From an uncultured Psychroserpens sp. (lineage in GTDB: Bacteria; Bacteroidota; Bacteroidia; Flavobacteriales; Flavobacteriaceae): 64,000 nt of DNA. The position numbers and the translations under genes were made by a program. Below the pieces are notes generated by a model. The model ran no database searches. It saw only the letters and a list, made by a program, of their open reading frames with translations, and was not told where the DNA came from. The DNA is taken from positions 186,001 through 250,000 of the forward strand of contig CANKZZ010000003.1 in NCBI GenBank assembly GCA_947488655.1. The letters are read 5' to 3'. Position 1 is the first letter of the stretch; each line of letters begins with the position of its first letter. Of this stretch, positions 78-13,214 are shown piece after piece.

Positions 78-539
78 TTAGTTGTATAAAGTTATATAAA
101 GGTTTAATGATGTGGCAATACATAACCAAAATAAATAGGGTAGTATGAGTATAGATTTACGCTTTAAGTCTCTTAAATAGGTGACTAGAAATGCACACAC
201 AATAATTGTTAATAAGGTAATATTTACTAAGGCGAGGTCTACTAGTTTTTGATTAAAAAATAAAAAGTTCCAGCTTATGTTTAAAAAAAACTGAATTATA
301 AATAATGTGTTAACTTTTTTTGTTGGACGTTGTAAATAGAGATGGGTCATGTAAATAGAAAAACAAACCATTATAATCGTCCAAGCTGCGCCAAATACCC
401 AACCATCTGGCGTCCAAGGTGCTTTGTTAAGTTGTTGGTACCAATCTCCTTTAGGACCATCTGCCATTAATAAACTCCCAATGCATAAGGCACTAAAATT
501 TATAAATAAAAAGATAACAAATGGTTTTAAAAACTTCAT
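78..539 (-). CDS. tspO: TspO/MBR family tryptophan-rich membrane protein
   Basis: This is a 153-residue membrane protein with five hydrophobic segments, as usual for TspO. It has the family signature in loop 1 (W-Y-Q-Q-L-N-K-A-P-W-T-P) followed by GWVFGAAWT. TspO proteins bind tetrapyrroles and porphyrins and are linked to photo-oxidative stress and, in Rhodobacter, to pigment gene control. A longer open frame reaches 593, but it would overlap the preceding mini-gene. The ATG at 539 gives the normal N-terminus (MKFLKPFVIF) and sits one base after that gene's stop. Its place among photolyases and glutathione peroxidase fits a photoprotective role (inference). Confidence 0.85.
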   Translation of the reverse strand: MKFLKPFVIFLFINFSALCIGSLLMADGPKGDWYQQLNKAPWTPDGWVFGAAWTIIMVCFSIYMTHLYLQRPTKKVNTLFIIQFFLNISWNFLFFNQKLVDLALVNITLLTIIVCAFLVTYLRDLKRKSILILPYLFWLCIATSLNLYITLYN

Positions 540-540
540 C

Positions 541-711
541 TTACTTTTTTTGAAGTTGTAAAATTTGATCTTCAATTTTTTGAGCCTCAGCATATTTTTT
601 GTCGCTCTCTCCTCTGTTTGTAGTTGATAGAGCGTGCCACTCTTTCATGAGTTTTTCGTATTTTTTCTGAAGTTTTTCAACCTCACTCGTTTTTTTAAAT
701 AAACCAAACAT
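541..711 (-). CDS. Lacal_2735-type mini-protein (56 aa)
   Basis: This 56-residue frame begins MFGLFKKTSEVEKLQKKYEK and ends in ILQLQKK. It is highly charged and predicted fully helical after the hydrophobic MFGLF tip. It matches what I recall of the Lacal_2735 family, a short flavobacterial protein of unknown function with an 'LST(T)NR' core; here LSTTNR is present. It lies between glutathione peroxidase (7-base gap) and tspO (1-base gap), so it is translated from the same message. A role in oxidative or light stress is inferred only from context. Confidence 0.75.
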   Translation of the reverse strand: MFGLFKKTSEVEKLQKKYEKLMKEWHALSTTNRGESDKKYAEAQKIEDQILQLQKK

Positions 712-718
712 AGCTATC

Positions 719-1258
719 TTATTTTAAGTGTTTAATAATTTTTGAACTCAGAGGGCTGGTCATAGAAAAGTAATAATCTACAAATTCTCCTGTTGGTGCA
801 ATTAGGTATTTTTGAAAATTCCATTTCACCTTAGAGTTGGCTACCCTATTTTTTCTTTTTTGCGTCAACCACTCGTACAAAGGATGTTGATTAGCATCTT
901 TTACATCTATTTTTTCTGTAATAGGAAATGTAACACCATAATTAATCTCGCAAAAAGATTCTATATCTTTAGCATTACCAGGTTCTTGATTCCCAAATTG
1001 ATTACAAGGCACACCTATAACAACAAGTGTGTCTTTGTAACTATCATAAAGTTCTTGTAACTCTTTATATTGGGATGTAAAACCACATTTTGATGCCACA
1101 TTTACAAAGAGAATGTACTTATCTTTATATGCGGAAAGTGATAACGGTTTACCATTTAGCCCATTAATTTCTATATCGTAAATAGAGGAGTAGTTAGCTG
1201 TTTCCGAAGCATTTGAAGTCGAACATAATGTTGCCATAAAAATTTTTATTGGGTTCAT
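719..1258 (-). CDS. Glutathione peroxidase family thiol peroxidase
   Basis: This is a 179-residue thioredoxin-fold peroxidase. The peroxidatic cysteine is Cys58 in NVASKCGFT. The conserved Gln is in PCNQFGNQEPG (about residue 87), and the Trp-Asn pair of the active-site tetrad is in VKWNFQKYL (about 146-147). It is a cysteine, not selenocysteine, enzyme. Such bacterial proteins usually use thioredoxin rather than glutathione to reduce peroxides. An open frame reaches back to 1360, but the ATG at 1258, one base after the stop of the upstream SDR gene, gives the right length. The N-terminal 20 residues look like a weak export or linker segment; location is unsure. Confidence 0.88.
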   Translation of the reverse strand: MNPIKIFMATLCSTSNASETANYSSIYDIEINGLNGKPLSLSAYKDKYILFVNVASKCGFTSQYKELQELYDSYKDTLVVIGVPCNQFGNQEPGNAKDIESFCEINYGVTFPITEKIDVKDANQHPLYEWLTQKRKNRVANSKVKWNFQKYLIAPTGEFVDYYFSMTSPLSSKIIKHLK

Positions 1259-1259
1259 C

Positions 1260-1943
1260 TTAAATTTTAAAGCTAACGATTCCGCAGTCCATTTCAAATA
1301 CTTGTCCAGAAATAGAACTTGCTTTATCAGATAATAAAAAGGCAGCCATACCAGCAACATCCTTAGGTTGTAAAAACTTTTTCATAGGATGACGCTCTGC
1401 AATGCTATCTATCATTTTATCATTTCTAAGTAATTTTGAAGCTAACTCAGTATTTGTAACTGTAGGAGCAATGGCATTAATTCTTAATGAGGTAGCAAGC
1501 TCAGCACCTAATGATTTTACTAAACCTTCAACACCAGATTTTGCAGCAGCAATACTTGCATGAAAAGGCATCCCTAATTTGGCAGCAACTGTACTAAATA
1601 ATACAATTGACGGATCGTTACCATTTTTAATACTACTTAAATAAGTTTGTATGGCTTTGACAGCTCCAATGACATTAATTTCATAATCTTCCCTAAAATC
1701 GTCTAAACTTAGGCGTTTTATAGGTTTTAAATTAATGCTTCCTGGGCAATAAACCAATCCGTCTGCAGCTTCGATTTCAGGTAGCTCATCTTTTAAAATA
1801 TCGCAGGTATGATGCGTGAGATTGTCATGCGAGAAACTTGGTGCTGTACGACTAATGTTTATGATTTTGTGATTTTCTAAGAGAGTTTCGACAATGGCAT
1901 TACCAATGCCTTTACTGCCACCTATAATTATATACGTTTTCAT
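1260..1943 (-). CDS. Atypical SDR family oxidoreductase
   Basis: This 227-residue Rossmann-fold protein has the nucleotide motif GGSKGIG at residues 8-14 and NVIGAVKA/NAIAPT-type strands of classical short-chain dehydrogenases. The catalytic Tyr of the Y-x-x-x-K motif is missing: the helix reads HASIAAAKSGVEGL, with Ile four residues before the Lys. The Lys and the preceding Ser (LFST) remain. It starts the tight run SDR-gpx-Lacal_2735-tspO. The 77-base gap upstream contains an inverted repeat. The substrate is unknown; SDRs of this 'HAxIAxAK' type recur beside photolyases, so a pigment or pterin substrate is possible (inference). Confidence 0.8.
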   Translation of the reverse strand: MKTYIIIGGSKGIGNAIVETLLENHKIINISRTAPSFSHDNLTHHTCDILKDELPEIEAADGLVYCPGSINLKPIKRLSLDDFREDYEINVIGAVKAIQTYLSSIKNGNDPSIVLFSTVAAKLGMPFHASIAAAKSGVEGLVKSLGAELATSLRINAIAPTVTNTELASKLLRNDKMIDSIAERHPMKKFLQPKDVAGMAAFLLSDKASSISGQVFEMDCGIVSFKI

Positions 1944-2248: not shown

Positions 2249-2944
2249 TTAATTATTTATATAGTTGTGTAATTCTAAAATTTTCTCTGGTGTGTTAAAT
2301 GCTCCACCATAATAACTGGTCACTGTTGCAGAGCTCTCATCTTTTATGCCTCTAGAGGACACACAAAGGTGTTTTGCGTCTATAATAACAGCAACATCAT
2401 TAGTGCCTAAAATAGACTTTAAATCTTCGGCTATTTGGTTGGTTAAACGCTCTTGTACTTGAGGACGCTTAGCATAATATTGTACAATTCTATTAAGTTT
2501 AGATAAACCTATAACCTTACCAGACGATATATAAGCTACATGTGCTTTACCAATAATTGGAACAAAATGATGCTCGCAATTAGAATAAAATGTGATATTT
2601 TTTTCAACCAACATTTGATTGTACTGGTACTTGTTATCAAATAATGCTATTGTTGGTTTATTAGCTGGATTTAATCCAGAAAAGATTTCGTCAATGTACA
2701 TTTTGGCAACACGTTTTGGTGTGCCTTTTAAAGAATCATCGGTTAAATCTAAACCCATAACATCCATAATTTCTTCAAACAGAATAGCGATGCGTTGTTT
2801 TTTCTCGTCATCACTAATCTTAAAAGCGTCAGGTTTCATTGGTGTCTCAAGTCCAGTAAATAGATGATCATCACCAATATCTGTAATTGAAAAGTCATTT
2901 AAAGAACGACTATTGTTTTTGAGGTTTATAGTATTTGTACTCAT
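2249..2944 (-). CDS. folE: GTP cyclohydrolase I
   Basis: This 231-residue protein carries the type I GTP cyclohydrolase core. The zinc ligands are visible as Cys123 and His126 in SNCEHHFVP and Cys194 in KHLCVSSRG. The substrate-binding region VIGLSKLNRIVQYYAKRPQVQE follows the first site. The enzyme makes 7,8-dihydroneopterin triphosphate, the first step towards folates and other pterins. An N-terminal extension of about 40 residues precedes the core. Location inside a photolyase cluster suggests a dedicated copy feeding the methenyl-tetrahydrofolate antenna of photolyases or another reduced pterin (inference). A housekeeping copy elsewhere would support this. Confidence 0.93.
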   Translation of the reverse strand: MSTNTINLKNNSRSLNDFSITDIGDDHLFTGLETPMKPDAFKISDDEKKQRIAILFEEIMDVMGLDLTDDSLKGTPKRVAKMYIDEIFSGLNPANKPTIALFDNKYQYNQMLVEKNITFYSNCEHHFVPIIGKAHVAYISSGKVIGLSKLNRIVQYYAKRPQVQERLTNQIAEDLKSILGTNDVAVIIDAKHLCVSSRGIKDESSATVTSYYGGAFNTPEKILELHNYINN

Positions 2945-2998: not shown

Positions 2999-3271
2999 TT
3001 ATCGTTTAGAAATCGAGTTGTGTGTAATTTGTTTTTGTCTAGAGCATTTAAAACGTCCTTCTTGAAATACTCTTAATTTTTCGTGTTTGGTTTTTCTACC
3101 TTGTACACGTTTGCGCCACATTTTAAAACTTTTAGGTTTCATTTCTCTGCGCATTAATTCTATGACATCTTGTTCTTTTAAGCCAAATTGAAATTCTATA
3201 GCTTCAAACGTGGTTCTATCTTCCCATGCCATTTCTATTACTCTATCTGTCGCTCTTATATCTAATTCCAT
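2999..3271 (-). CDS. DUF2805 / TIGR03643 family protein
   Basis: This 90-residue protein begins MELDIRATDRVIEMAWEDRT. An N-terminal helix-turn-helix-like segment (TFEAIEFQFGLKEQDVIELMRREMK) leads into a very basic tail (FKMWRKRVQGRKTKHEKL, then FKCSRQKQITHNSI). This matches the DUF2805 family, found next to photolyases and cryptochromes in marine bacteria. The fold resembles a small DNA-binding protein, but no function is established. A frame reaches back to 3304; the ATG at 3271, 4 bases after the upstream stop, gives the normal family N-terminus. Confidence 0.85.
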   Translation of the reverse strand: MELDIRATDRVIEMAWEDRTTFEAIEFQFGLKEQDVIELMRREMKPKSFKMWRKRVQGRKTKHEKLRVFQEGRFKCSRQKQITHNSISKR

Positions 3272-3275
3272 ACAA

Positions 3276-3701
3276 TTAAAATTGAAAACTATATTGCTCG
3301 TCAAATTTTACTTTAGCATCATATAGTTTATTCATAAACGCTTTATTTTCTTTAAACGTTTTATTGTTTTTAAAATGAACAAATTTACCTTGAGCATGAA
3401 TACTAATTCCGTTGGTTTTATAAATTACTAATTGATAAAACGGGATAATCCACGTGTAATTTTTAAGACCTTTTGTGACGTAAATTAAAATACCATTAGG
3501 TCTCATTTCTATATTAGCATAATTTATATCGGATACCGTATTTAAGTACTGCTGTAAATTAGGACTTACGTTTTCTATAATCATTCGTTTTGAACCTACA
3601 CCTCTCATTTTAAGAGATTCTAGAAAAGAATAAGGCTTACCAATCAAATCCTCTATGATGGATTTGTGCTCTTTATTGTGATATGTTGAATCTAAAATCA
3701 A
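3276..3701 (-). CDS. Uncharacterised protein, first gene of the second light-cluster unit
   Basis: This is a 141-residue soluble protein beginning with TTG (L/MILDSTYHNKEHKS). It has a mixed alpha/beta pattern with two consecutive strands (GILIYVTKG, WIIPFYQLVIY) and a C-terminal SIHAQGKFVHFKNNK stretch. I do not recognise a named domain. No ATG is available before residue 32, and the promoter -7 box lies at 3728-3721, so the TTG start leaves a leader of roughly 13 bases. It heads the unit that contains DUF2805 and folE and is directly behind the 30-bp operator, so it should be strongly co-regulated with the photolyases. Confidence 0.75.
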   Translation of the reverse strand: MILDSTYHNKEHKSIIEDLIGKPYSFLESLKMRGVGSKRMIIENVSPNLQQYLNTVSDINYANIEMRPNGILIYVTKGLKNYTWIIPFYQLVIYKTNGISIHAQGKFVHFKNNKTFKENKAFMNKLYDAKVKFDEQYSFQF

Positions 3702-3720: not shown

Positions 3721-3763
3721 CAAATTTACAAAATGTTTAATGTTTTTTTATTATCATTAAACA
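3721..3763 (-). promoter_or_regulatory. Promoter with 30-bp palindromic operator (second light-cluster unit)
   Basis: A -7 box TAAATTTG (minus strand, 3728-3721) matches the Bacteroidota TAnnTTTG consensus. Upstream lies an inverted repeat, TGTTTAATG (3734-3742) and CATTAAACA (3755-3763), spanning exactly 30 bp. Its centre is about 20 bp above the -7 box, where the -33 element should be. The same repeat with the same spacing precedes the other unit at 12368-12397. A regulator bound here would cover the -33 region; whether it represses or activates cannot be told. Confidence 0.65.
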
Positions 3764-3839
3764 AAATATTAACATATAAGTATAGTTATTATCTATAATA
3801 AAATTAGTATACTGATAATCAAATAGTTGTAATATGTTT

Positions 3840-5309
3840 TTAATCTTTAAACGTATGCTTTTTTAGAATTCTAAGGCTTTCTTCTTTAACCTTTTTGTTT
3901 TTTCTAAGTTTCCATAGTGTATTGCTTGCTTTTTTTCGTGTAGTATCCATATCAACAATAGGGTAGGGATAATCTTTACCCAACTCAAAATTATATAATT
4001 GTTGTTCCATATCTGTCATTAAATATGGCTCATGAGCAAATGCAATATCTAAATCTTTTAGCTCTGGAACCCATTTTTTTATAAAAATAGCATCAGGATC
4101 ATGTTCTAAACTATTTTTAATAGGATTGTATATTCTCAACATATTAGTGCCAGTTTCTCCAGCTTGCATTTGTAACTGCGGAAAATGTATACCTGGTTCA
4201 AAATCTAAAAACATTTGTGATAAATGTTGAGAGGCATCTTGCCATGGCTGCCAAAGATTATGAGTAAAGAATGATACCACTAAGGCACGCATTCTAAAAT
4301 TTAAATAACCAGTTTCAATAAGGCATCGCATACATGCATCAATTAGCGGGAAACCAGTTTGTCCTGTTTGCCAGGCAATTTGATATTTAATTGAGATGTC
4401 TTTTTTTAATTTATGAAATCCTTTATTAACGCTTTCATTTTCCATGGTGTGCTCCATTTCAAATTTTTGTATAAAGTGTGCCTGCCAACGTAATCTAGAC
4501 ATAAAGGCTTCTAAATCTTTTTTCTTAGTGGCTGTTTGTTTTAAAAAATAAGCTTGACGATATACTTCTCTAATCGATAAATTTCCCCAAGCAATGTATG
4601 GAGAGATTCTACTGCAACCTTTTCTTGCCAGAGCTGGTTTAGAAATATGCTGCATATAATTAACATAGCGTTTGGAAAGAAAAGAATCTAGATATTTTAA
4701 ACCTATAGTGCGTCCGCCTTTTTGAAAAATAGCATCTTTAGGCGTATCTAAGCTGGCTTTTGGCAGTAGGCTTTCTAAATTTTCAATTTCTGTAATGGTA
4801 AGTAATTGATTATTTGCAGGAGAAAATTTTAAAGGTTCTATTTCAAAAAACTCATTACATTTTTGGTTCCATTGCTCTCGGTTTTGTAATCCTCTTTGAA
4901 CACCGTTATGAATATTCTCATGCCAAGTAATTAAATTGTTTTTACAAAAGCGTTTAAATGATTTATCTCTGTTATAGGTAACTAAAATTCCTGTTTCTTG
5001 GTGTGAGTATATATCTCTAATAGTATAGCTAGACATTAATTGGTTTATAACTAAAATAATATCTGCTTCTACCGTTAAAATTTTACTATTATAAGGTTTG
5101 AGTTGTTGATTAAGATCTCTAAGAGATTCTTTTATAAAGTTCCAATGTCTTGTGCTGTAATGATTATCTTCTAGTAATATTTTTTCAAAAGCATAAAGTA
5201 TAAGGGTACGTTTACCTGTAGCTAAAGCATTGGCAATAGCCTCATTATCTTCTAATCTAAGATCGCGTTTAAGCCAAACGATATTTATATTTGACGTGTT
5301 AGTACTCAT
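3840..5309 (-). CDS. Cryptochrome/photolyase family flavoprotein (489 aa)
   Basis: This 489-residue protein has an N-terminal photolyase antenna domain (NIVWLKRDLRLEDNEAI) and a C-terminal FAD-binding helical domain (SRISPYIAWGNLSIREVYRQ, FMSRLRWQAHFIQKFE, TGFPLIDACMRCL, RMRALVVSFFTHNLWQPW). In the FAD pocket the usual NNGGWQW-type motif of CPD photolyases is replaced by PQLQMQAGETGTNMLRIYNP. That divergence suggests a separate cryptochrome or photolyase clade rather than a standard CPD photolyase. It overlaps the preceding FeS-type gene by 11 bases and is the last gene of the first unit. DNA repair and light sensing are both possible. Confidence 0.85.
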   Translation of the reverse strand: MSTNTSNINIVWLKRDLRLEDNEAIANALATGKRTLILYAFEKILLEDNHYSTRHWNFIKESLRDLNQQLKPYNSKILTVEADIILVINQLMSSYTIRDIYSHQETGILVTYNRDKSFKRFCKNNLITWHENIHNGVQRGLQNREQWNQKCNEFFEIEPLKFSPANNQLLTITEIENLESLLPKASLDTPKDAIFQKGGRTIGLKYLDSFLSKRYVNYMQHISKPALARKGCSRISPYIAWGNLSIREVYRQAYFLKQTATKKKDLEAFMSRLRWQAHFIQKFEMEHTMENESVNKGFHKLKKDISIKYQIAWQTGQTGFPLIDACMRCLIETGYLNFRMRALVVSFFTHNLWQPWQDASQHLSQMFLDFEPGIHFPQLQMQAGETGTNMLRIYNPIKNSLEHDPDAIFIKKWVPELKDLDIAFAHEPYLMTDMEQQLYNFELGKDYPYPIVDMDTTRKKASNTLWKLRKNKKVKEESLRILKKHTFKD

Positions 5310-6831
5310 CTTGATGTTCTATAATATGTAGCGCTTTCTCTTTAATCTTATTGAGGTCATCTTTACTCATTTTATCAAGTAAGCTATACATCATTCCCAT
5401 TCTAAAATTGTTGCCAAGTTGGTCTCGTTTATCGTCCAGAAAATTCCAGTAGAGACTGTTAAACGGACACGCATCGTCTTCAATTTTCTTAGATTTGTTG
5501 TAGTGACAATTTCCGCAGTAATTACTCATTTTATTTATGTAAGAACCCGAAGATACATATGGCTTTGTTGCAATTTTACCACCATCTGCAAATTGGCTCA
5601 TCCCTCTTGTGTTTGCTAATTGTACCCACTCTATAGCATCAACATAAACGCCCAAATACCAATCATCAACCTCATCTGGATTGGTTTGTGTTAATAGCGC
5701 ATAATTACCAGTAATCATTAAACGTTGTATGTGGTGCGCATAACCATTGTCTAATGAGTTATTAATGGTGTGTTTTAGACAATTCATTTTTGTATCACCT
5801 GTCCAAAAGAAATCTGGTAATTTATTATGGTTTTCGAGCTCGTTTTTAGTTTTGTATTCTGGCATTAATGCCCAGTACATGCCTCGCATATATTCTCGCC
5901 ACCCAATCACTTGTCTAACAAACCCTTCGACTTGAGATATGTGAATGTGTTCTCCATGTTTACGATAATAGTTCATTACAGTTGTGACTATATCTATGGG
6001 AGAAATAAGTTTTAAATTCATAGCAAATGAAAGCCTAGAATGAAATAAATATGCTTGGTCTGTATGCATTGCATCCTGGTAATCTCCAAAATGAATAAGT
6101 AATTCTTCACAAAAATATTTTAGTTGCTCTATAGCTTGCTGTCGAGAAATAGGATACGAAAATGTTTTGGTATTAAACCTTCCCATAGTTTTTACACCAG
6201 CAGATTCAATATCTTTTTTTACTTCGGAAATATCATTTTTAAACCCTTTGTAGTTGGGGATTTCTACATCGCCTTTCCATTTATTTCTGTTGCTTTTATC
6301 GTAATTCCATTTGCCACCTTCTGGTTGGCCAGCTACCATTAAAATATCATGTTTTTTGCGCATATCTCTGTAGAAATTCTCCATGAGATATTGTTTTTTA
6401 CCTTTAAAAAATGTTGCTAAATCATCTCTTTTGGTGTAAAAATGTTCTGCGGAAAATGGCTGACTTTTAATTTCTAAAAGTTTACAGAAATCGCTAAGCT
6501 GTTTATCTAATCTATACTCATCAGGAAAAATATATTCGAAGTTTTTTATGTCATTCTGCTCAATTAACAGATTGAGATTATTTGTTAAGCTCTGGGTATT
6601 TTTATCGTCGTTTAGTTTAAAATAGATTACATTATGATTTTGAGATTTTAAGTCGGTAGCAAATTGTCGCATAGCAGCAAAAAAGCCAATTACTTTTTGG
6701 ATGTGGTGCTGTACATAATCTGTTTCTTGACGCATTTCAAAAAGACAATAAATAATATCGTCATTGGTTTCTTTAAACCATGAGTGCTTTATGTTTAATT
6801 GATCGCCAAGTATGAGTCTTAAAGTTTTCAA
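5299..6831 (-). CDS. FeS-type bacterial (6-4) photolyase / CryB-like cryptochrome
   Basis: This 510-residue protein begins with a TTG codon (L/MKTLRLILGDQLN), the standard N-terminus of the FeS-BCP group. The four cysteines that hold the [4Fe-4S] cluster are visible: Cys351 in MNCLKH, Cys439 and Cys442 in NYCGNC, and Cys455 in DACPF. Relatives such as PhrB and CryB bind FAD plus 6,7-dimethyl-8-ribityllumazine and repair (6-4) photoproducts; that is family knowledge. A stop codon lies two codons before the TTG, so no ATG start exists. It lies 40 bases after CRY-DASH and overlaps the next cryptochrome. Confidence 0.92.
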   Translation of the reverse strand: MKTLRLILGDQLNIKHSWFKETNDDIIYCLFEMRQETDYVQHHIQKVIGFFAAMRQFATDLKSQNHNVIYFKLNDDKNTQSLTNNLNLLIEQNDIKNFEYIFPDEYRLDKQLSDFCKLLEIKSQPFSAEHFYTKRDDLATFFKGKKQYLMENFYRDMRKKHDILMVAGQPEGGKWNYDKSNRNKWKGDVEIPNYKGFKNDISEVKKDIESAGVKTMGRFNTKTFSYPISRQQAIEQLKYFCEELLIHFGDYQDAMHTDQAYLFHSRLSFAMNLKLISPIDIVTTVMNYYRKHGEHIHISQVEGFVRQVIGWREYMRGMYWALMPEYKTKNELENHNKLPDFFWTGDTKMNCLKHTINNSLDNGYAHHIQRLMITGNYALLTQTNPDEVDDWYLGVYVDAIEWVQLANTRGMSQFADGGKIATKPYVSSGSYINKMSNYCGNCHYNKSKKIEDDACPFNSLYWNFLDDKRDQLGNNFRMGMMYSLLDKMSKDDLNKIKEKALHIIEHQDEY

Positions 6832-6871
6832 TATTATTTATCTCAATTTAAATGTTATACTATCTTTTATT

Positions 6872-8182
6872 TTAAAACAGCGTTTCTTGCAGCCATAATT
6901 TTTGAAATTTGCCATTAGAATCATAACGTTGCGCTTGCAGGTCAACATTAAATTTTCTATCTCTAGGATCATTACCAACTCCTGCTACATACATCCAGTT
7001 TCCGTAGTTAGAATGCACATCATAATCTAAAAGCATAGCTTCAAAATAAGCAGCACCAATGCGCCAATCCAGTAAAAGTTCTTTTGCAAAATAGGATGCT
7101 ACATTTTGGCGACCTCGATTACTCATCCAACCAGTTTTTTTTATTTCTATCATGTTCGCGTTTACAAAGTTTGAGTTAGTTGTACCATCAATCCATGATT
7201 GAATGTTATTTTTATCTGTGTTCCAATCGTAGTCTTTTTGCAAAATTCCTCCAATTTTAAAAATGTCGTTTTTATGTTTTAGAGCAATGTATTTAAAGTA
7301 ATCTCTCCAAATTAATTCAAAAATGAGCCAATAGGTAGATTCATTTTTTACATGTTCTTTTTCAAATTTTTTAATTTGCCAATATATTGTTTTGGGAGAT
7401 AAACTGCCATTTGCCAACCAAGGTGAAAATTTTGAGCTAAAGTCCTTCCCAATTAAACCGTTTCTTGTCTTTTTATAAAACCCTAATTTTTTAGTTTCAA
7501 AGAAGTAATTATTTAATCTGGCTAGAGCCGAAGTTTCGCCACCTAAAAAAGGAAATGCACTGTTTGGATGCGTTTTAAAATCGTCAAATCCTAAAACAGT
7601 TAGACTTGGGATGCTTGTGTTGTTCTCTAAACCTTCAATTTTTTTTCCAGAAATAGTATCCTGACATGCTCTAACAGAACTCTGTTTTTCGACAATTTTT
7701 CTAAATACAGTAAATACTTTTGGGATGTCGTTAAATGACATGTTAATATCATCTGGATGGTACAAAAATTGGTCATAATGCTCATAAAAATTAACCTTAT
7801 TAGAAACTGATGACTTAACAGCAGTTAAAGTGTTGGTTTCTTCTTTAGTCCATTCTTTTTGTAAAAAGACAGATGTGACATTATGATTTTCTACTAAAGT
7901 TTTAATAGCTATTTCGGGAGATTTATTATAAACGAAAAGTTCTATATTTAAAGATTTGAGATTTGCTTTTAAATCTTGTATAGTCTCAATTAAAAATTTA
8001 GCTCTGTATTTTTCGGTTTTTTTAAATCCAAAGTTTGAGTTCTCAAAATGTTTAGGATCAAAACAGTATACAGCTATTACAGATTGATATTTTGATAATG
8101 CTGCATTAAGAACTTTGTTGTCCTTAGTTCTTAAATCATTTCTAAACCATACAAGTGCTATGTTGTTTTGTTCCGTCTGCAT
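6872..8182 (-). CDS. CRY-DASH family cryptochrome/photolyase
   Basis: This 436-residue protein has the antenna-domain start [15 protein letters not shown] and the FAD-domain motifs [37 protein letters not shown] and [22 protein letters not shown]. The C-terminus ([21 protein letters not shown]) is diagnostic of the DASH clade. Members bind FAD and methenyl-tetrahydrofolate and repair CPDs mainly in single-stranded or looped DNA. The start overlaps the end of the DUF2256 gene by 25 bases. Together with the two following genes it forms a run of three different photolyase-family proteins. Confidence 0.93.
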
Positions 8183-8301
8183 TTTTCGCTACAATATTTT
8201 ACATTTTCCCAATTTTTCTCCCATTTCTTACGCCAATTAAATGGCAATTTGCAAGTGTGACAGATTTTTGAGGGTAAGTTTGTTTTTTTATGGTTAGACA
8301 T
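8158..8301 (-). CDS. DUF2256 zinc-ribbon mini-protein (47 aa)
   Basis: This 47-residue frame begins [20 protein letters not shown] and ends EKCRRNKTT. Two CxxC-like pairs (C-H-T-C and Y-C-S-E-K-C) form a probable zinc ribbon, separated by the [12 protein letters not shown] segment that typifies DUF2256. It overlaps the upstream SDR gene by 8 bases and the downstream CRY-DASH gene by 25 bases, so it is translationally coupled to both. DUF2256 is commonly found beside photolyases, but its role is unknown. A DNA- or protein-binding helper for photolyase is a reasonable guess. Confidence 0.88.
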
Positions 8302-9718
8302 CTACGAGTTTATTAATCATACCGTTAAAAATCAATCCGTGAAACGGTAATACTGCATACCAATATAGTCGTCCCCAAAGTCCTCGTGGTCTAAAGGTGG
8401 CTGTTTGTTTTAAAAGGCCATCTTCAATTTTAAATTCTAGCCAAGCTTCTCCAGGGAGGCGCATTTCGGCATATAATAAAAGTTTTTGTTGTTGCTTATC
8501 TGCAAAAATGACACGCCAAAAATCTAAGGCATCACCTACATCTAATTGTGTAGGGTTTGTTCTACCTCTTCGTAAACCAATACCTCCAAAAAGTTTATCT
8601 ATATAACCTCTAATTTTCCATAGAATAGTGCCATAATACCATCCATTTTTACCACCAATACTCCAAATTTTATTTATGGTTTTTTCGGCATCTTTTACAG
8701 GACGCTCTTTGTAATCTTTAAAACAGCCATATTTTGGTACATTAATATATTTATGTAGTTGGTTTCTTAATCTACCACTACTTACCATAGAGTCTTTCCA
8801 GCTGGAAACAATACTATTTTGTTCGATTTTCTCAAAAGCTAATGATACTGCTTCTTTGTAAGATTTTGGTTGTACATTTAATAGGCTGTTTATATTACTA
8901 GGTTTACCTATAATTTGAACTCCCATACTGTCTACTAATGAGCTAGCAAGTTTATAAGAGGTTGATGTTACAAAGTATAACCAATATGACGATAATTTAG
9001 GTGTCATTACAGGCACTGTTAAAATATATCGCTTTAAACCTCGTACTTGTGCAAATTGCATTAGCATTTGTTTATAGGTCAAAATTTCGGGACCAAAAAC
9101 ATCATACGATTTGTTATACAAATCTTTTCTACCAACACTGCGATGCAAAAATGATAATACATCTCTTACCGCTAGTGGTTGAGTTTTTGTATTTAACCAT
9201 TTTGGGGCAATCATAAATGGAAGTTTCTCAACCAGGTCTCTAATAATTTCAAATGAAGAACTTCCTGAGCCTACTATAATCCCAGCTTTAAATATAGTTG
9301 TTGCGTACTTATTAGATTTTAAAATGTCTTCTACATTTTTACGAGATTGTAAATGTTTAGATAGATTTTCTTCATTGGTAATACCACTTAAATAAATTAC
9401 CTGCTTAACATTTGTTTTTTCTAGTTGGGCTTTAAAATTAGTAGCGCAACGCTCTTCTAGTGATTCAAAATCTTTTGAAGAGTTAGACATTGAGTGTATT
9501 AAATAAAAGGCAACGTCAATATCATTAGGGATATTTGTAAGTGTTTCTGGTTTTAAAAAATCTGCTTCAATGACATTTATAGTGTCATCCTCAGCATAAT
9601 TTTTATCTGCTCGCAACTTGTCTCTTACAGCGCATATAACCTGATGGTCATCATTTGCCAATAACGGTATTAACCGCTTGCCAATATAACCTGTTGCACC
9701 TGTAACGAGAATATTCAT
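8294..9718 (-). CDS. NmrA/YbjT-like NAD(P)-binding protein with DUF2867 domain
   Basis: This 474-residue two-domain protein starts with a Rossmann domain ([12 protein letters not shown], residues 5-16; [17 protein letters not shown]), as in extended or atypical SDRs. The second half (from about residue 320) is a DUF2867 domain ending in [20 protein letters not shown] and a hydrophobic [10 protein letters not shown]. Proteins of this layout occur with photolyases and carotenoid genes. A short-chain reductase role is suggested but no substrate is known. It sits 27 bases after the flavin reductase gene and overlaps DUF2256. Confidence 0.85.
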
Positions 9719-9745
9719 AATTTTATATGGTGTTTTATTTGGCTA

Positions 9746-10360
9746 TTATTTTGGTCGTTGGTACTCAAAACGCGCTTTTAATTTTGGAATAGCATAACCA
9801 TCTAAACCATTAATAGCTGCGACATTTGCTTTTGAGAGATTAATAAAACCATCATCTTCTAACAGTTCATTGTTAACATATAGACCAACAATTTTGCCTA
9901 TAACTAAAATGGTATCATTTGCATTTATAGGATATTCTTCTACAAATTGCATAGCCATTTTAAGAGGTGCATCTTTTACAAATGGTGCATGAAAATCATT
10001 ATTATATTCTGAAATGAGCTGTGTTTTATCAAATTCAGAAATGTTTGACTCATATTTAGCAGATGTATGATGTGCATCTTTTAAAATAGACTCATGTATA
10101 TGATTTATAGTATAAAATCCTGTTTTTTTTATATTATCATAAGTATTTCTTGTAACCGTAGTTGGTCTACAAAAAAAACCTAATAATGGTGGATTTGATC
10201 CTATATGAGTTACTGAGCTAAAGACAGCAACATTTTCAACACCATCTTGTGATTTTGTGCCGATTAAATTAGCCGATTTGTAGCCAGAACAACTATTAAT
10301 TAAGTTAATTCTATATAAATGATCAAATCCATCGAGCTCCTTGTTGCTAATGTATGCCAT
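9746..10360 (-). CDS. Flavin reductase family protein (FMN-binding split barrel)
   Basis: This 204-residue protein has the flavin reductase-like split-barrel pattern: KSANLIGTKSQDGVENVAVFS, then a conserved NPPLLGFFCRPTTVTRNTYDN loop and FYTINHIH. Such proteins bind FMN and reduce or transfer flavin electrons with NAD(P)H. The start codon overlaps the stop of the kinase-like gene (TAATG arrangement at 10360), so the two are translationally coupled. Reducing flavin for the neighbouring flavoproteins is an attractive inference but unproved. Confidence 0.85.
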   Translation of the reverse strand: MAYISNKELDGFDHLYRINLINSCSGYKSANLIGTKSQDGVENVAVFSSVTHIGSNPPLLGFFCRPTTVTRNTYDNIKKTGFYTINHIHESILKDAHHTSAKYESNISEFDKTQLISEYNNDFHAPFVKDAPLKMAMQFVEEYPINANDTILVIGKIVGLYVNNELLEDDGFINLSKANVAAINGLDGYAIPKLKARFEYQRPK

Positions 10361-11670
10361 TATAAGGTTTTAAAATTATTAATTTTAATGTCTCTAGCTT
10401 TTAAATCAAACATTAAATTATACAATCCAAAAAAGGTTCTATTTATATAAATAAAATGTTTAGAGCCTCTATTACCATTCATTTTGCGTAACTCTGTACT
10501 TTTAGAATAGCGTTCTCCTAACTCGGTTATTTTTCCGAAGAAAACACCGTCAGAGAAATCAAATGTTTCTTGATGAAAAGGTTGTGTAAATAAACTTAAC
10601 ATTTCATGAAACATCTCTGTAAAAAAAGCGACTTCTTTTGGACTATCATCTTCTCTAAGAATTTCTAACTGGTATAGTTTCTCTACAAAGAAAACTCTAT
10701 TTGTGATGTTTTCTTTCTTAGCTAATTCAAAATAAGGTACATAGAATTCATCTGGGATTGTTTTCATACAACCAAAATCTAAAGCGATAAGTTTACCTTC
10801 TTCGGAAATTAAAAAATTTCCAGGATGAGGATCTGCATGAACCTTTTTTAATTTATGAATTTGAAACATATAAAAATCCCAAAGAGCTTGACCTAATTGA
10901 TCTGAAAACTCTTGATTGGTATTATATGCTGTAAATTCAGACAAGTGTTCACCTTCCATATAATCCATAGTAATAATACGTTCAGACGAGAGGTCTTCGT
11001 AATATTGAGGAAACAAAAGATTTGGTATATGTGCACAATTTTTTGCTATTTCTTCACTTTGTTTAAGCTCTAAAATGTAATTGGTTTCTTCAATTAGTTT
11101 ACCTTCAACTTCTTTAAAATATTTATCAGAGTCTTTACCTTTTATATTAAACATACTCATGGCTATTGGTTTAACCATAGCTAGGTCTGATGCGATACTT
11201 TCAGCAACTCCTGGATATTGGATTTTCACAGCAAGTTTTTTCCCATTTTTTTCTGCAATATGGACTTGTCCAATGCTTGCAGCATTTACAGAAGTTGCAT
11301 TGAAGGTATCATAAATTTCGTTTGGTAATTTTCCGAAATATTTTTTAAATGTTTTTAAAACCAAAGGCGGAGATAATGGTGGCACAGAGAATTGAGCTAA
11401 TGAGAATTTCTCTACATAAGCTTGAGGTAAAATACTCTTTTCCATACTTAGCATTTGAGCAACTTTAAGTGCACTGCCCTTAAGTTGTTTTAGACTGTCG
11501 TAAATATCATCTGCATTATTTTGATTTAGACGTTCTTTTGCTTCAACCTCAGTTTTGGTTAATTTATCTCCGTAATATTTTAAGTAATTAACACCAACTT
11601 TTGCGCCTGTAGAAACGAGTTTTGAAGCGCGTTGTATTTTTGATGTTGGAATTTTGTCAATTGTTTTCAT
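10360..11670 (-). CDS. ABC1/AarF/UbiB-like atypical kinase
   Basis: This 436-residue protein has the ABC1 family layout. The N-terminal signature helix reads LKVAQMLS in place of the usual KxGQ. It is followed by an Ala-rich nucleotide loop (NAASIGQVH), the Lys strand (LAVKIQYPG), the Glu region, HADPHPGNFLI and the metal-binding LDFGCM. Relatives support quinone synthesis or lipid metabolism as atypical kinases/ATPases. Membrane segments are not obvious. It starts 10 bases after the TetR gene and couples to flavin reductase. Other marine photolyase clusters also carry an ABC1 gene, so a role in pigment or quinone photoprotection is likely but unproved. Confidence 0.88.
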   Translation of the reverse strand: MKTIDKIPTSKIQRASKLVSTGAKVGVNYLKYYGDKLTKTEVEAKERLNQNNADDIYDSLKQLKGSALKVAQMLSMEKSILPQAYVEKFSLAQFSVPPLSPPLVLKTFKKYFGKLPNEIYDTFNATSVNAASIGQVHIAEKNGKKLAVKIQYPGVAESIASDLAMVKPIAMSMFNIKGKDSDKYFKEVEGKLIEETNYILELKQSEEIAKNCAHIPNLLFPQYYEDLSSERIITMDYMEGEHLSEFTAYNTNQEFSDQLGQALWDFYMFQIHKLKKVHADPHPGNFLISEEGKLIALDFGCMKTIPDEFYVPYFELAKKENITNRVFFVEKLYQLEILREDDSPKEVAFFTEMFHEMLSLFTQPFHQETFDFSDGVFFGKITELGERYSKSTELRKMNGNRGSKHFIYINRTFFGLYNLMFDLKARDIKINNFKTL

Positions 11671-11680
11671 TGCTTGCTAA

Positions 11681-12337
11681 TTATTTCATTTGGATTTTCT
11701 CTTTGAAAATAAATTTTCCAAAGTCAATTAAGCTTCTTATTGGAGCCACATCTAAGACATCAAAACTTGTATTTACAGATTTCTCAATAAATAAATCTGT
11801 CTTTTCAAAAGCAGGTGAGGTGTCGTCTAACCAAAATTTCATGGTTAATAATAATTGCAACCATGCAGTTTCTTTTAAACCTCTTCTTTGAATTCTGTCA
11901 ATTTGCTCTTGTTTTATGTCTATTAAATCGATATCTAAATGCTCTATATAATTTGTAAAAGCATGTTTTAAATCTTTAAGTAAACTCAAACCTTTAAGGC
12001 TGTTTTTATGATGTTCTAATGCATATTTAACGTAGCTGCGATTAGCTGTTAAATTCTCAAAAAATGTGAAGTAGAAACTTAATAATTTATTTCTAGCATC
12101 AAAAGATTGATAATCTTCACTTTTTTCTAAAACACTAACTGTGTTATGATAAAATGCCACAAACACGTGTTTTTCTACCGCTTCAAAAGAACCAAAATGC
12201 TCGTAGAATTTTTGCTCTTCAAAGTTATTAGCTTTTGCAAATGCATAAACTGTTTTAGGTTGTTCTCCATGCTCTAAGACAAAATCCATATAAAATGAAA
12301 TAATGTCATTAGTACTAATTTTTTTCTTTTTTGCCAT
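11681..12337 (-). CDS. TetR-type transcriptional regulator
   Basis: This 218-residue protein has an N-terminal helix-turn-helix (TNDIISFYMDFVLEHGEQPK, then TVYAFAKANNFEEQKFYEHFG, where the second part is the recognition helix with the TetR-like F-Y-x-H-F). A ligand-binding-type C-terminal domain follows. It is the first gene of the photolyase unit and lies directly behind the 30-bp palindrome at 12368-12397, so autoregulation is plausible. The 30-bp palindrome is long for a TetR dimer and might instead be bound by a MerR/CarH-type light regulator encoded outside the window. The ligand is unknown. Confidence 0.82.
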   Translation of the reverse strand: MAKKKKISTNDIISFYMDFVLEHGEQPKTVYAFAKANNFEEQKFYEHFGSFEAVEKHVFVAFYHNTVSVLEKSEDYQSFDARNKLLSFYFTFFENLTANRSYVKYALEHHKNSLKGLSLLKDLKHAFTNYIEHLDIDLIDIKQEQIDRIQRRGLKETAWLQLLLTMKFWLDDTSPAFEKTDLFIEKSVNTSFDVLDVAPIRSLIDFGKFIFKEKIQMK

Positions 12338-12354
12338 GATGTTAAATTGTACAG

Positions 12355-12397
12355 TAAAGATACAAAATGTTTAACGATTATTATTAATTGTTAAACA
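12355..12397 (-). promoter_or_regulatory. Promoter with 30-bp palindromic operator (first light-cluster unit)
   Basis: A -7-like box TATCTTTA (minus strand, 12362-12355) differs from TAnnTTTG only in the last base. The inverted repeat TGTTTAAC (12368-12375) and GTTAAACA (12390-12397) spans exactly 30 bp. Its centre is about 20 bp above the -7 box, the same geometry as at 3734-3763. It precedes the TetR gene and the eight-gene photolyase unit. Confidence 0.65.
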
Positions 12398-12444: not shown

Positions 12445-13101
12445 CTAGCAGCAATTATCATCTTTGACAAGACTACAACTTACTACTGCTAAAAATGCTC
12501 CTATAAAAGGTGCTGTTAAATACAACCATAAATGTTGTAGGTTTCCAGAGACAATGGCAGGTGCGAGAGACCTTATAGGATTCATAGATGCTTTTGTCAT
12601 AGGACCAGCAAACATGGCTTCTAATAAAATTACAGATCCAACCGCAATGGCTGCCATTGTGCCTATTTCTTTACTTCCTGTCGAAACATTAATAATAACT
12701 AGCATTAAAAAAAAGGTTAAAATAAGTTCTAATACAAATGCTTTGTAAGGTTCAAAACCTTGTGCTGGTAATGTGCTGCCTAAGGTTTCACTCTCCGGAA
12801 ATAGGAAGAGGAGCAATAAACAAGCTAGAAAAGCACCAATAGCTTGGGCTAAAATATATTTTGGGACTTCTTTCCACGGAAACTTTTTAGCATATGCAAA
12901 TCCAAACGTTACTGCAGGATTAAAATGTGCACCAGATATTTCGCCAAAGGCATATATCATACTCATTACTATTAGTCCCCAAGTTATTGCAACACCTACG
13001 TGCGTAATGCTTCCTCCAGTGATTTCATTTATTGTCATGGCACCACAACCACAAAAAACCATGGCGAATGTACCAATAACTTCAGAGTAATATTTTTTCA
13101 T
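12445..13101 (-). CDS. Aquaporin (MIP family channel)
   Basis: This 218-residue protein has six membrane segments and two half-helices. The first signature is SGAHFNPAVTF. The second is NPIRS (SMNPIRSLAPA) rather than NPA, with the selectivity-filter Arg retained. The tail ends in DDNCC, a vicinal cysteine pair. A GTG 12 bases upstream also fits, but the ATG at 13101 gives the standard N-terminus MKKYYSEV. It transports water and perhaps small neutral solutes. Its own promoter should lie in 13102-13214, but I see no clear box. Confidence 0.9.
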   Translation of the reverse strand: MKKYYSEVIGTFAMVFCGCGAMTINEITGGSITHVGVAITWGLIVMSMIYAFGEISGAHFNPAVTFGFAYAKKFPWKEVPKYILAQAIGAFLACLLLLFLFPESETLGSTLPAQGFEPYKAFVLELILTFFLMLVIINVSTGSKEIGTMAAIAVGSVILLEAMFAGPMTKASMNPIRSLAPAIVSGNLQHLWLYLTAPFIGAFLAVVSCSLVKDDNCC

Positions 13102-13214
13102 TTGCAATCTCACTTTTAGGCTTAATTTAATTTAAGTTTTTCTTAACAACCAACACGTTTGCTTGTTTGTAAATTTACATGAACATTTAAAACTAATCAT
13201 TAAAACTAATACAA

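Follow-up and report, generated by a model that had tools for sequence, protein, structure and literature searches.

A palindrome at photolyase, pterin, carotenoid and fasciclin promoters of Psychroserpens as the probable operator of a CarH-type B12 photoreceptor

The window analyzed here is a stretch of 64,000 nucleotides (nt) from an uncultured Psychroserpens sp. of the family Flavobacteriaceae (contig CANKZZ010000003.1, positions 186,001 to 250,000). Two minus-strand transcription units in this window, one carrying photolyase genes behind a TetR-type gene and the other carrying folE, are each headed by the palindrome TGTTTAA-N16-TTAAACA, hereafter the T-type palindrome. Comparison with other genomes makes it highly probable, in our judgment, that the palindrome is the operator of a CarH-type B12 photoreceptor, which would act as a repressor of pigment, DNA-repair and antioxidant genes.

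The palindrome pair and its two transcription units

A pattern search of the whole window finds exact copies of the palindrome at 3734-3763 and 12368-12397 and none further. The original prediction that the pattern occurs exactly twice therefore holds for the window; elsewhere in the genome there are three more exact copies. The predicted extension of the 7-bp arms by one or two bases is also seen, inward, with arms of 9 bp at the first site (TGTTTAATG/CATTAAACA) and 8 bp at the second (TGTTTAAC/GTTAAACA). Read on the minus strand, both sites have the form TTAAACA-TTTTG-box, and the -7 consensus of Bacteroidetes is TAnnTTTG. Each box lies 5 nt from its palindrome, which puts the -7 box of both units about 20 bp downstream of the palindrome centre, as had been proposed. 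The features of the two units are as follows.

3734..3763, minus strand: palindrome 1, proposed CarH operator, 9-bp arms; pattern search, with an orthologous site before the same gene in relatives
3721..3728, minus strand: -7 box TAAATTTG of the folE unit, 5 nt from palindrome 1
3276..3701, minus strand: first gene of the folE unit, 141 aa, TTG start, no Pfam match
2999..3304, minus strand: DUF2805 protein
2249..2944, minus strand: folE, GTP cyclohydrolase I
1260..1943, minus strand: short-chain dehydrogenase (SDR)
719..1360, minus strand: glutathione peroxidase; the listed open reading frame overlaps the SDR gene
78..593, minus strand: TspO/MBR protein
12368..12397, minus strand: palindrome 2, proposed CarH operator, 8-bp arms; pattern search, conserved before TetR in relatives
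12355..12362, minus strand: -7 box TATCTTTA of the TetR/photolyase unit, 5 nt from palindrome 2
11681..12337, minus strand: TetR-type protein, first gene of the photolyase unit; only TetR_C_23 recognized by Pfam
10360..11670, minus strand: ABC1/AarF-type kinase
9746..10360, minus strand: flavin reductase-like protein
8294..9718, minus strand: NAD-binding/DUF2867 protein (SDR474)
6872..8182, minus strand: photolyase/cryptochrome family protein, 436 aa
5299..6831, minus strand: photolyase-related protein (DPRP), 510 aa
3840..5309, minus strand: photolyase family protein, 489 aa, last gene of the photolyase unit

Orthologues of the first folE-unit gene start 29-31 nt after the palindrome. The reading frame listed for the glutathione peroxidase shares about 100 bp with the SDR gene upstream of it; its true start is therefore probably further in than annotated.

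Could such palindromes arise by chance in AT-rich DNA? The window is 68% A+T, and with up to two mismatches it holds four matches in all, against a shuffle mean of 3.0, which places the two extra copies at chance level. The exact sites behave differently. Chance predicts 0.004 exact copies per window and 0.23 per genome, and 120 Markov-simulated windows contained none, whereas the whole genome (G000; 3.6 Mb in 20 contigs) has five, compared with zero for the reversed pattern, which served as control. At up to one mismatch the counts are 14 and 5. The spacer length is also specific: when TGTTTAA-N(2-30)-TTAAACA was scanned in 11 genomes of the genus, N16 accounted for 43 of the 75 matches listed, and the other 28 lengths averaged 1.1 each. 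Orthologous promoters in other genera keep the site as well. The genome counts against the control, the N16 excess and the chance expectation lead us to reject a chance origin, to which we give next to no credence.

Genomic copies and the regulator beside crtI

Among the three exact copies outside the window, one (C4:540686) stands directly before crtI in a carH-crtI-crtB-crtZ-crtY run, and another (C5:38761) before a gene with a fasciclin domain in Pfam. The third (C2:164649; L011:5001-5030) lies between two genes of one locus, which we take to be a LacI-type regulator and a SusC-like gene of a maltose-type locus. There are also nine one-mismatch copies. The five inside genes (L007, L014, L015, L020, L021) were dropped; of the four outside genes, the copy at L018 precedes a second fasciclin gene and that at L016 a Porph_ging/GLPGLI gene, the copy at L019 separates a gene for a periplasmic binding protein from a TonB-receptor-like gene, and that at L017 lies between what are presumably a PdxJ-like and a CBS-domain-like gene.

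The carH-like gene of the carotenoid run (C4:540743-541639) is outside the window and is the sole match of its kind in the genome. Its 299-residue product matches PF13411 (MerR_1, the N-terminal helix-turn-helix; E 2e-16) and PF02607 (B12-binding_2; E 3e-08). Pfam gave no Rossmann B12 match for this protein, but its structural model matches full-length Thermus CarH. The alignment to Thermus CarH (E 1e-11) contains the W-x9-EH and ExHExG residues. The AlphaFold model has a mean pLDDT (predicted local distance difference test score) of 89.7, and the top 12 Protein Data Bank matches to it are full-length Thermus CarH chains. In the neighboring run (L012), Pfam identifies crtB as SQS_PSY, crtY as Lycopene_cycl and crtI as a member of the amino-oxidase family; it gives no support for crtZ. 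Every sequence and structure test that we made is consistent with membership of the CarH family, from which light and B12 dependence would follow by homology.

That homology needs care, because a CarH protein might read the site in a capacity other than that of a B12 light sensor: as a B12-independent or redox-responsive regulator, for instance, or as an activator of the MerR type. CarA (PMC9304148) and class II LitR (PMC9758184) are described as working without B12, and the glycine of the ExHxxG signature is missing in three of 60 homologues. However, the signature is otherwise present (57/60), W-x9-EH is found in 60/60, and W143, E153, H154, E191 and H193 are invariant in all 57 aligned proteins; the position of the site over the -7 box or start region, moreover, suits repression. 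We regard this alternative as doubtful, though it is the most credible of those considered. We have little doubt that CarH reads the palindrome, and consider it likely, with somewhat less assurance, that the reading depends on light and B12.

The palindrome often adjoins carH. Of the 30 CarH loci most like the query, 20 have a palindrome (one mismatch allowed) that starts 10-25 nt past the carH stop and before crt genes; in one more the distance is 223 nt. All seven same-genus CarH loci that were fetched have it beside carH, and 21 of 31 named loci, mainly from Psychroserpens and Mariniflexile, have it 16-39 nt after the matched carH end, which by itself would make Psychroserpens the probable genus of the window genome. 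Beyond the family, exact T-type palindromes were present in nine of 20 CarH loci chosen from 19 other families (3-5 kb fetched), and the distance to carH was at most 1.5 kb in 22 of the 29 genomes of the class for which both places were listed.

To define the putative regulon, we used the flanks of 73 exact sites in 18 genomes, a set that leaves out some sites of G246, G267 and G303 and all sites of G154, G027, G153, G034 and G130. One of these sites falls within a called frame, and for another no gene starts within 450 nt. Within that distance, the gene starts belong to a fasciclin cluster (16 site-gene pairs in 13 genomes), the TetR gene of the photolyase cluster (12 in 12), crtI (12 in 12), the first gene of the folE unit (9 in 9), a Porph_ging/GLPGLI-like family (6 in 6) and an unnamed cluster without Pfam match (4 in 4). 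HtpG-like, SDR474, LacI, SusC and a short unnamed family each occur in two genomes, and a katG-like peroxidase, OsmC and a polyketide-cyclase/SRPBCC-like protein, all supported by Pfam, occur once each. A thiouridylase-like gene recurs on the far side of fasciclin sites (8 pairs, 7 genomes); this and several other far-side genes are probably bystanders. Of the gene classes that the original prediction had named, carotenoid genes, the photolyase cluster and one SRPBCC-like gene thus have the site, and no rhodopsin gene was recognized among the sites examined.

The sites are placed in a regular way relative to the promoter. TAnnTTTG begins exactly at the palindrome centre in 25 of the 73, compared with 0.11 expected from spacer composition, and TAnnTTT followed by G or A begins 6 nt past the palindrome end in 22. 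A distance of 20 bp, roughly two turns of the helix, separates these placements. All 12 crtI sites (including L012:5001-5030) have the box at the centre and the ATG 0-4 nt after the palindrome, suggesting that crtI may be transcribed with almost no leader. A third apparent box position, 35 nt ahead of the palindrome end (13 of 82 gene-side rows), is due in part to the T-rich sequence flanking the arm.

Distribution across genomes and the operator letter

We examined 299 genomes of the family, 235 with the palindrome and 242 with a CarH-like protein at E up to 1e-15. The CarH matches form two classes, orthologues (clade A; E below 1e-60, a cut-off chosen after the two classes had been seen) in 220 genomes and weaker matches in 22. 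The palindrome is present in 217 of the 220 orthologue genomes, eight of the 22 with weaker matches and ten of the 57 with no match, that is, in 18 of 79 without an orthologue (Fisher p 3e-43 for orthologue against the rest, uncorrected for kinship). Splitting at E up to 1e-15 instead gives 225/242 with CarH against 10/57 without. Within the genus, G299 (99% complete) lacks both CarH and any N16 copy, and the ten other members, including the window genome, all have CarH and two to seven N16 copies each. A second sample of 285 genomes of the class from outside the family gives the same picture, with the palindrome in 140 of 187 that have a CarH homologue versus nine of 98 that do not. Comparison of genomes thus shows the site, its regulon and its tie to CarH, and the tie is not confined to the family.

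The TetR-type protein (11681-12337) might instead bind both palindromes and autoregulate its own unit. The TetR start codon lies 30 nt downstream of palindrome 2, and relatives keep the site at this gene: it is found 59-63 nt upstream of the TetR start in all nine clade-A relatives fetched, eight of which have a second exact palindrome before the first gene of the folE unit, with variable gene content in between. Co-occurrence points the other way. The palindrome is in 44 of 45 genomes that have a CarH orthologue without a TetR match, but in only nine of 22 with TetR and no CarH orthologue; the figures are 173/175 with both and 9/57 with neither. In addition, orthologous TetR genes in clade-B or CarH-less genomes have no site or an altered one, and Pfam recognizes only the C-terminal domain of TetR. 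We did not find what an autoregulated TetR operator would show, namely a site only with TetR and next to it. The co-occurrence and the altered sites lead us to reject TetR as the reader of the palindrome, a role that we consider very improbable. The original prediction had proposed one regulator for both halves of the cluster, either this TetR-type protein or a MerR/CarH-type regulator encoded outside the window. The single regulator is supported; the second candidate is now favored, since the palindrome tracks CarH over genomes and stands at crtI promoters beside carH, and the first is disfavored.

The genomes with clade-B CarH show how the operator changes with its presumed reader. In the seven such genomes that have only clade-B CarH, the TetR orthologues are 57-65% identical. 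Three of their promoters have the exact form TGTCTAA-N16-TTAGACA, which we call C-type (L123, L126, L129); the others have an N17 version (L128), a half-changed site (L124, L125) or none (L127). The exact C-type form occurs in 16 of the 299 family genomes. Its holders are ten of 21 clade-B genomes (21 because the weak CarH match of G295 is a broken clade-A copy), G135, which has both clades and one site beside folE, and clade-A G185. The copies in G006, G021, G121 and G271 fall within long open frames, and we discounted them as chance occurrences.

This letter swap largely corresponds to residue 26 of CarH, which lies in the recognition helix, the second helix of the helix-turn-helix. In a tree of 60 CarH proteins, where the clades are well supported, the residue is Ile in 38 of 40 clade-A proteins and Lys in 16 of 20 of clade B. 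Exact C-type copies are found in nine of the 16 Lys26 genomes; the four clade-B genomes with Ile26 have two, three, three and four T-type copies and no C-type copy. The carH promoters themselves agree, with a C-type palindrome (up to two mismatches) in 14 of the 16 Lys26 genes, and in the four clade-B Ile26 genes an exact T-type copy in two, a two-mismatch copy in one and none in one. Val26 was considered as a possible further specificity class: the form TGTTCAA-N16-TTGAACA stands just before carH in G594 (Val26), but it is the only copy in that genome, and copies also occur in four of the other 35 genomes searched. The clade-A genomes with Ala26 (G092) and Val26 (G135) have no T-type palindrome; because G020 (Ile26) also lacks it, these cases prove little.

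In 11 of the 16 Lys26 carH promoters (L103, L105-L107, L109-L111, L114, L118-L120) there are two C-type copies 51-53 bp apart, which suggests paired binding and autoregulation.

Another possibility is that a different regulator, co-inherited with carH, reads the site and that CarH is a bystander, since linked genes are not separable by co-occurrence alone. But the site adjoins carH itself in distant families and is found in clade-B carH promoters, its arms match the CarH half-site, and the operator letter, as judged by comparison, changes with the CarH clade. We therefore think it unlikely that CarH is a bystander.

Known operators and a proposed mechanism

The CarH proteins of Thermus, Bacillus and Myxococcales are described as binding tandem 11-bp repeats, nnnnTnnACAn, with the half-site TnnACA (PMC9304148, PMC8156234). 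By the definition of our pattern, TnnACA is on both arms, as TAAACA within TTAAACA and as TAGACA in the clade-B form. The system resembles CarH/LitR class I (Thermus thermophilus, Bacillus megaterium, Myxococcus xanthus) in its MerR helix-turn-helix, B12 fold, signature residues, crt linkage, half-site and site over the promoter, and differs in that its regulon is dispersed across numerous loci and includes photolyase, folE, peroxidase and fasciclin genes. Hidden tandem repeats were not found, further TnnACA copies at +/-11 or +/-22 bp on either strand being seen in only 0-2 of the 73 sites; we therefore assign the palindrome to a known photoreceptor family as an operator of a new type.

According to work on Pseudomonas class II LitR (PplR/PmlR; PMC9758184), that regulator is B12-independent, acts with a LOV protein, and has the site TGTACA-N12-TGTACA and a regulon of phrB, folE, cryB and an SDR. 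The light-type regulon with folE and photolyase is similar, and TGTACA is also a TnnACA form, but the present system retains the B12 residues and has a different spacing. Classic MerR-family operators are (pseudo)palindromes read by a MerR-type winged helix (PMC8156234); the site described here differs in its wide N16 gap and in lying over either the -33 region or the -7 box and start, which fits repression. Our literature search, with subscription papers mostly outside it, found no account of the palindrome or of any CarH operator in Bacteroidota. The flavobacterial crt genes of Chryseobacterium lacus, a species that we compared by its published description, are up in light by RNA-seq, and that report states that no car or lit genes were found and proposes an unidentified regulator (PMC7064467). 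The CarH reading may bear on this gap.

By analogy with known CarH proteins, we propose that in the dark CarH with bound adenosylcobalamin would bind the inverted repeat, using the TnnACA half-site (TAAACA) in each arm. It would cover the -7 box and start at the crtI, GLPGLI-like and many fasciclin promoters, and the -33 region at the TetR/photolyase and folE units, in either case keeping RNA polymerase off. Light would break the cobalt-carbon bond and release CarH, and the carotenoid, photolyase, pterin, peroxidase/TspO and fasciclin genes would be turned on together.

Several observations weigh against this model. The operator has two half-sites inverted at a fixed gap, and the known class I operators are tandem direct repeats. 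Nine of the 30 closest CarH loci have no palindrome beside carH, and only one of ten named loci that are mostly Flavobacterium (L240-L249) has one. Three genomes (G020, G092, G135) have the orthologue and no exact palindrome, and 18 have the palindrome and no orthologue, some being incomplete genomes (G079, 81%; G147, 73%; G271, 76%). Among 61 genera with two genomes, eight vary in orthologue presence; five of these agree with the association (5-0, 2-0, 6-0, 5-0, 4-0), one is tied (0-0) and two are contrary (0-1, 1-2). The LacI/SusC site, kept in two genomes, G000 and G267 (L216:2001-2030), does not fit a light regulon. A strict pairing of residue and letter is contradicted by four of the 16 Lys26 genomes, with one T-type copy each, and by G185 (Ile26), where a C-type copy outside genes ends just before carH. 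Finally, Lys26 needs only one change on the 60-protein tree (support 78/67), and on this ground we reject many independent Ile/Lys changes. Together with the exceptions, this makes the swap a single natural one with leak, not a statistical series.

The broadest interpretation, on which our opinion is evenly balanced, is that Bacteroidia have a class-wide B12-photoreceptor regulon with an inverted TnnACA N16 operator, a -7 box placed in 20-bp steps, residue 26 (Ile/Lys) largely setting the arm letter (TTAAACA/TTAGACA), and a reach to surface fasciclins and perhaps B12 uptake. Its inverted geometry, with 16 bp between 7-bp arms, would be one undescribed for CarH. If so, the dark CarH assembly must meet two-fold-symmetric DNA, unlike in the Thermus crystal complex. 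More generally, CarH as reader of the palindrome would give a very common bacterial group a likely light switch for its carotenoid and DNA-repair genes, and would tie B12 supply to photoprotection. The 30-bp site could be used in searches to predict light regulons, and the natural residue/base swap is open to gel-shift testing.

Two neighboring features may be added. The one-mismatch copy L019 (3001-3030; C4 of G000, around 309282) is just upstream of a cobalamin riboswitch (3093-3297, Rfam), which may connect the B12 sensor with B12 uptake; none of the 73 exact sites shows this arrangement. An aquaporin-type (MIP) gene (12445-13113) flanks palindrome 2 on its far side and is beside TetR in six of the nine clade-A relatives fetched.

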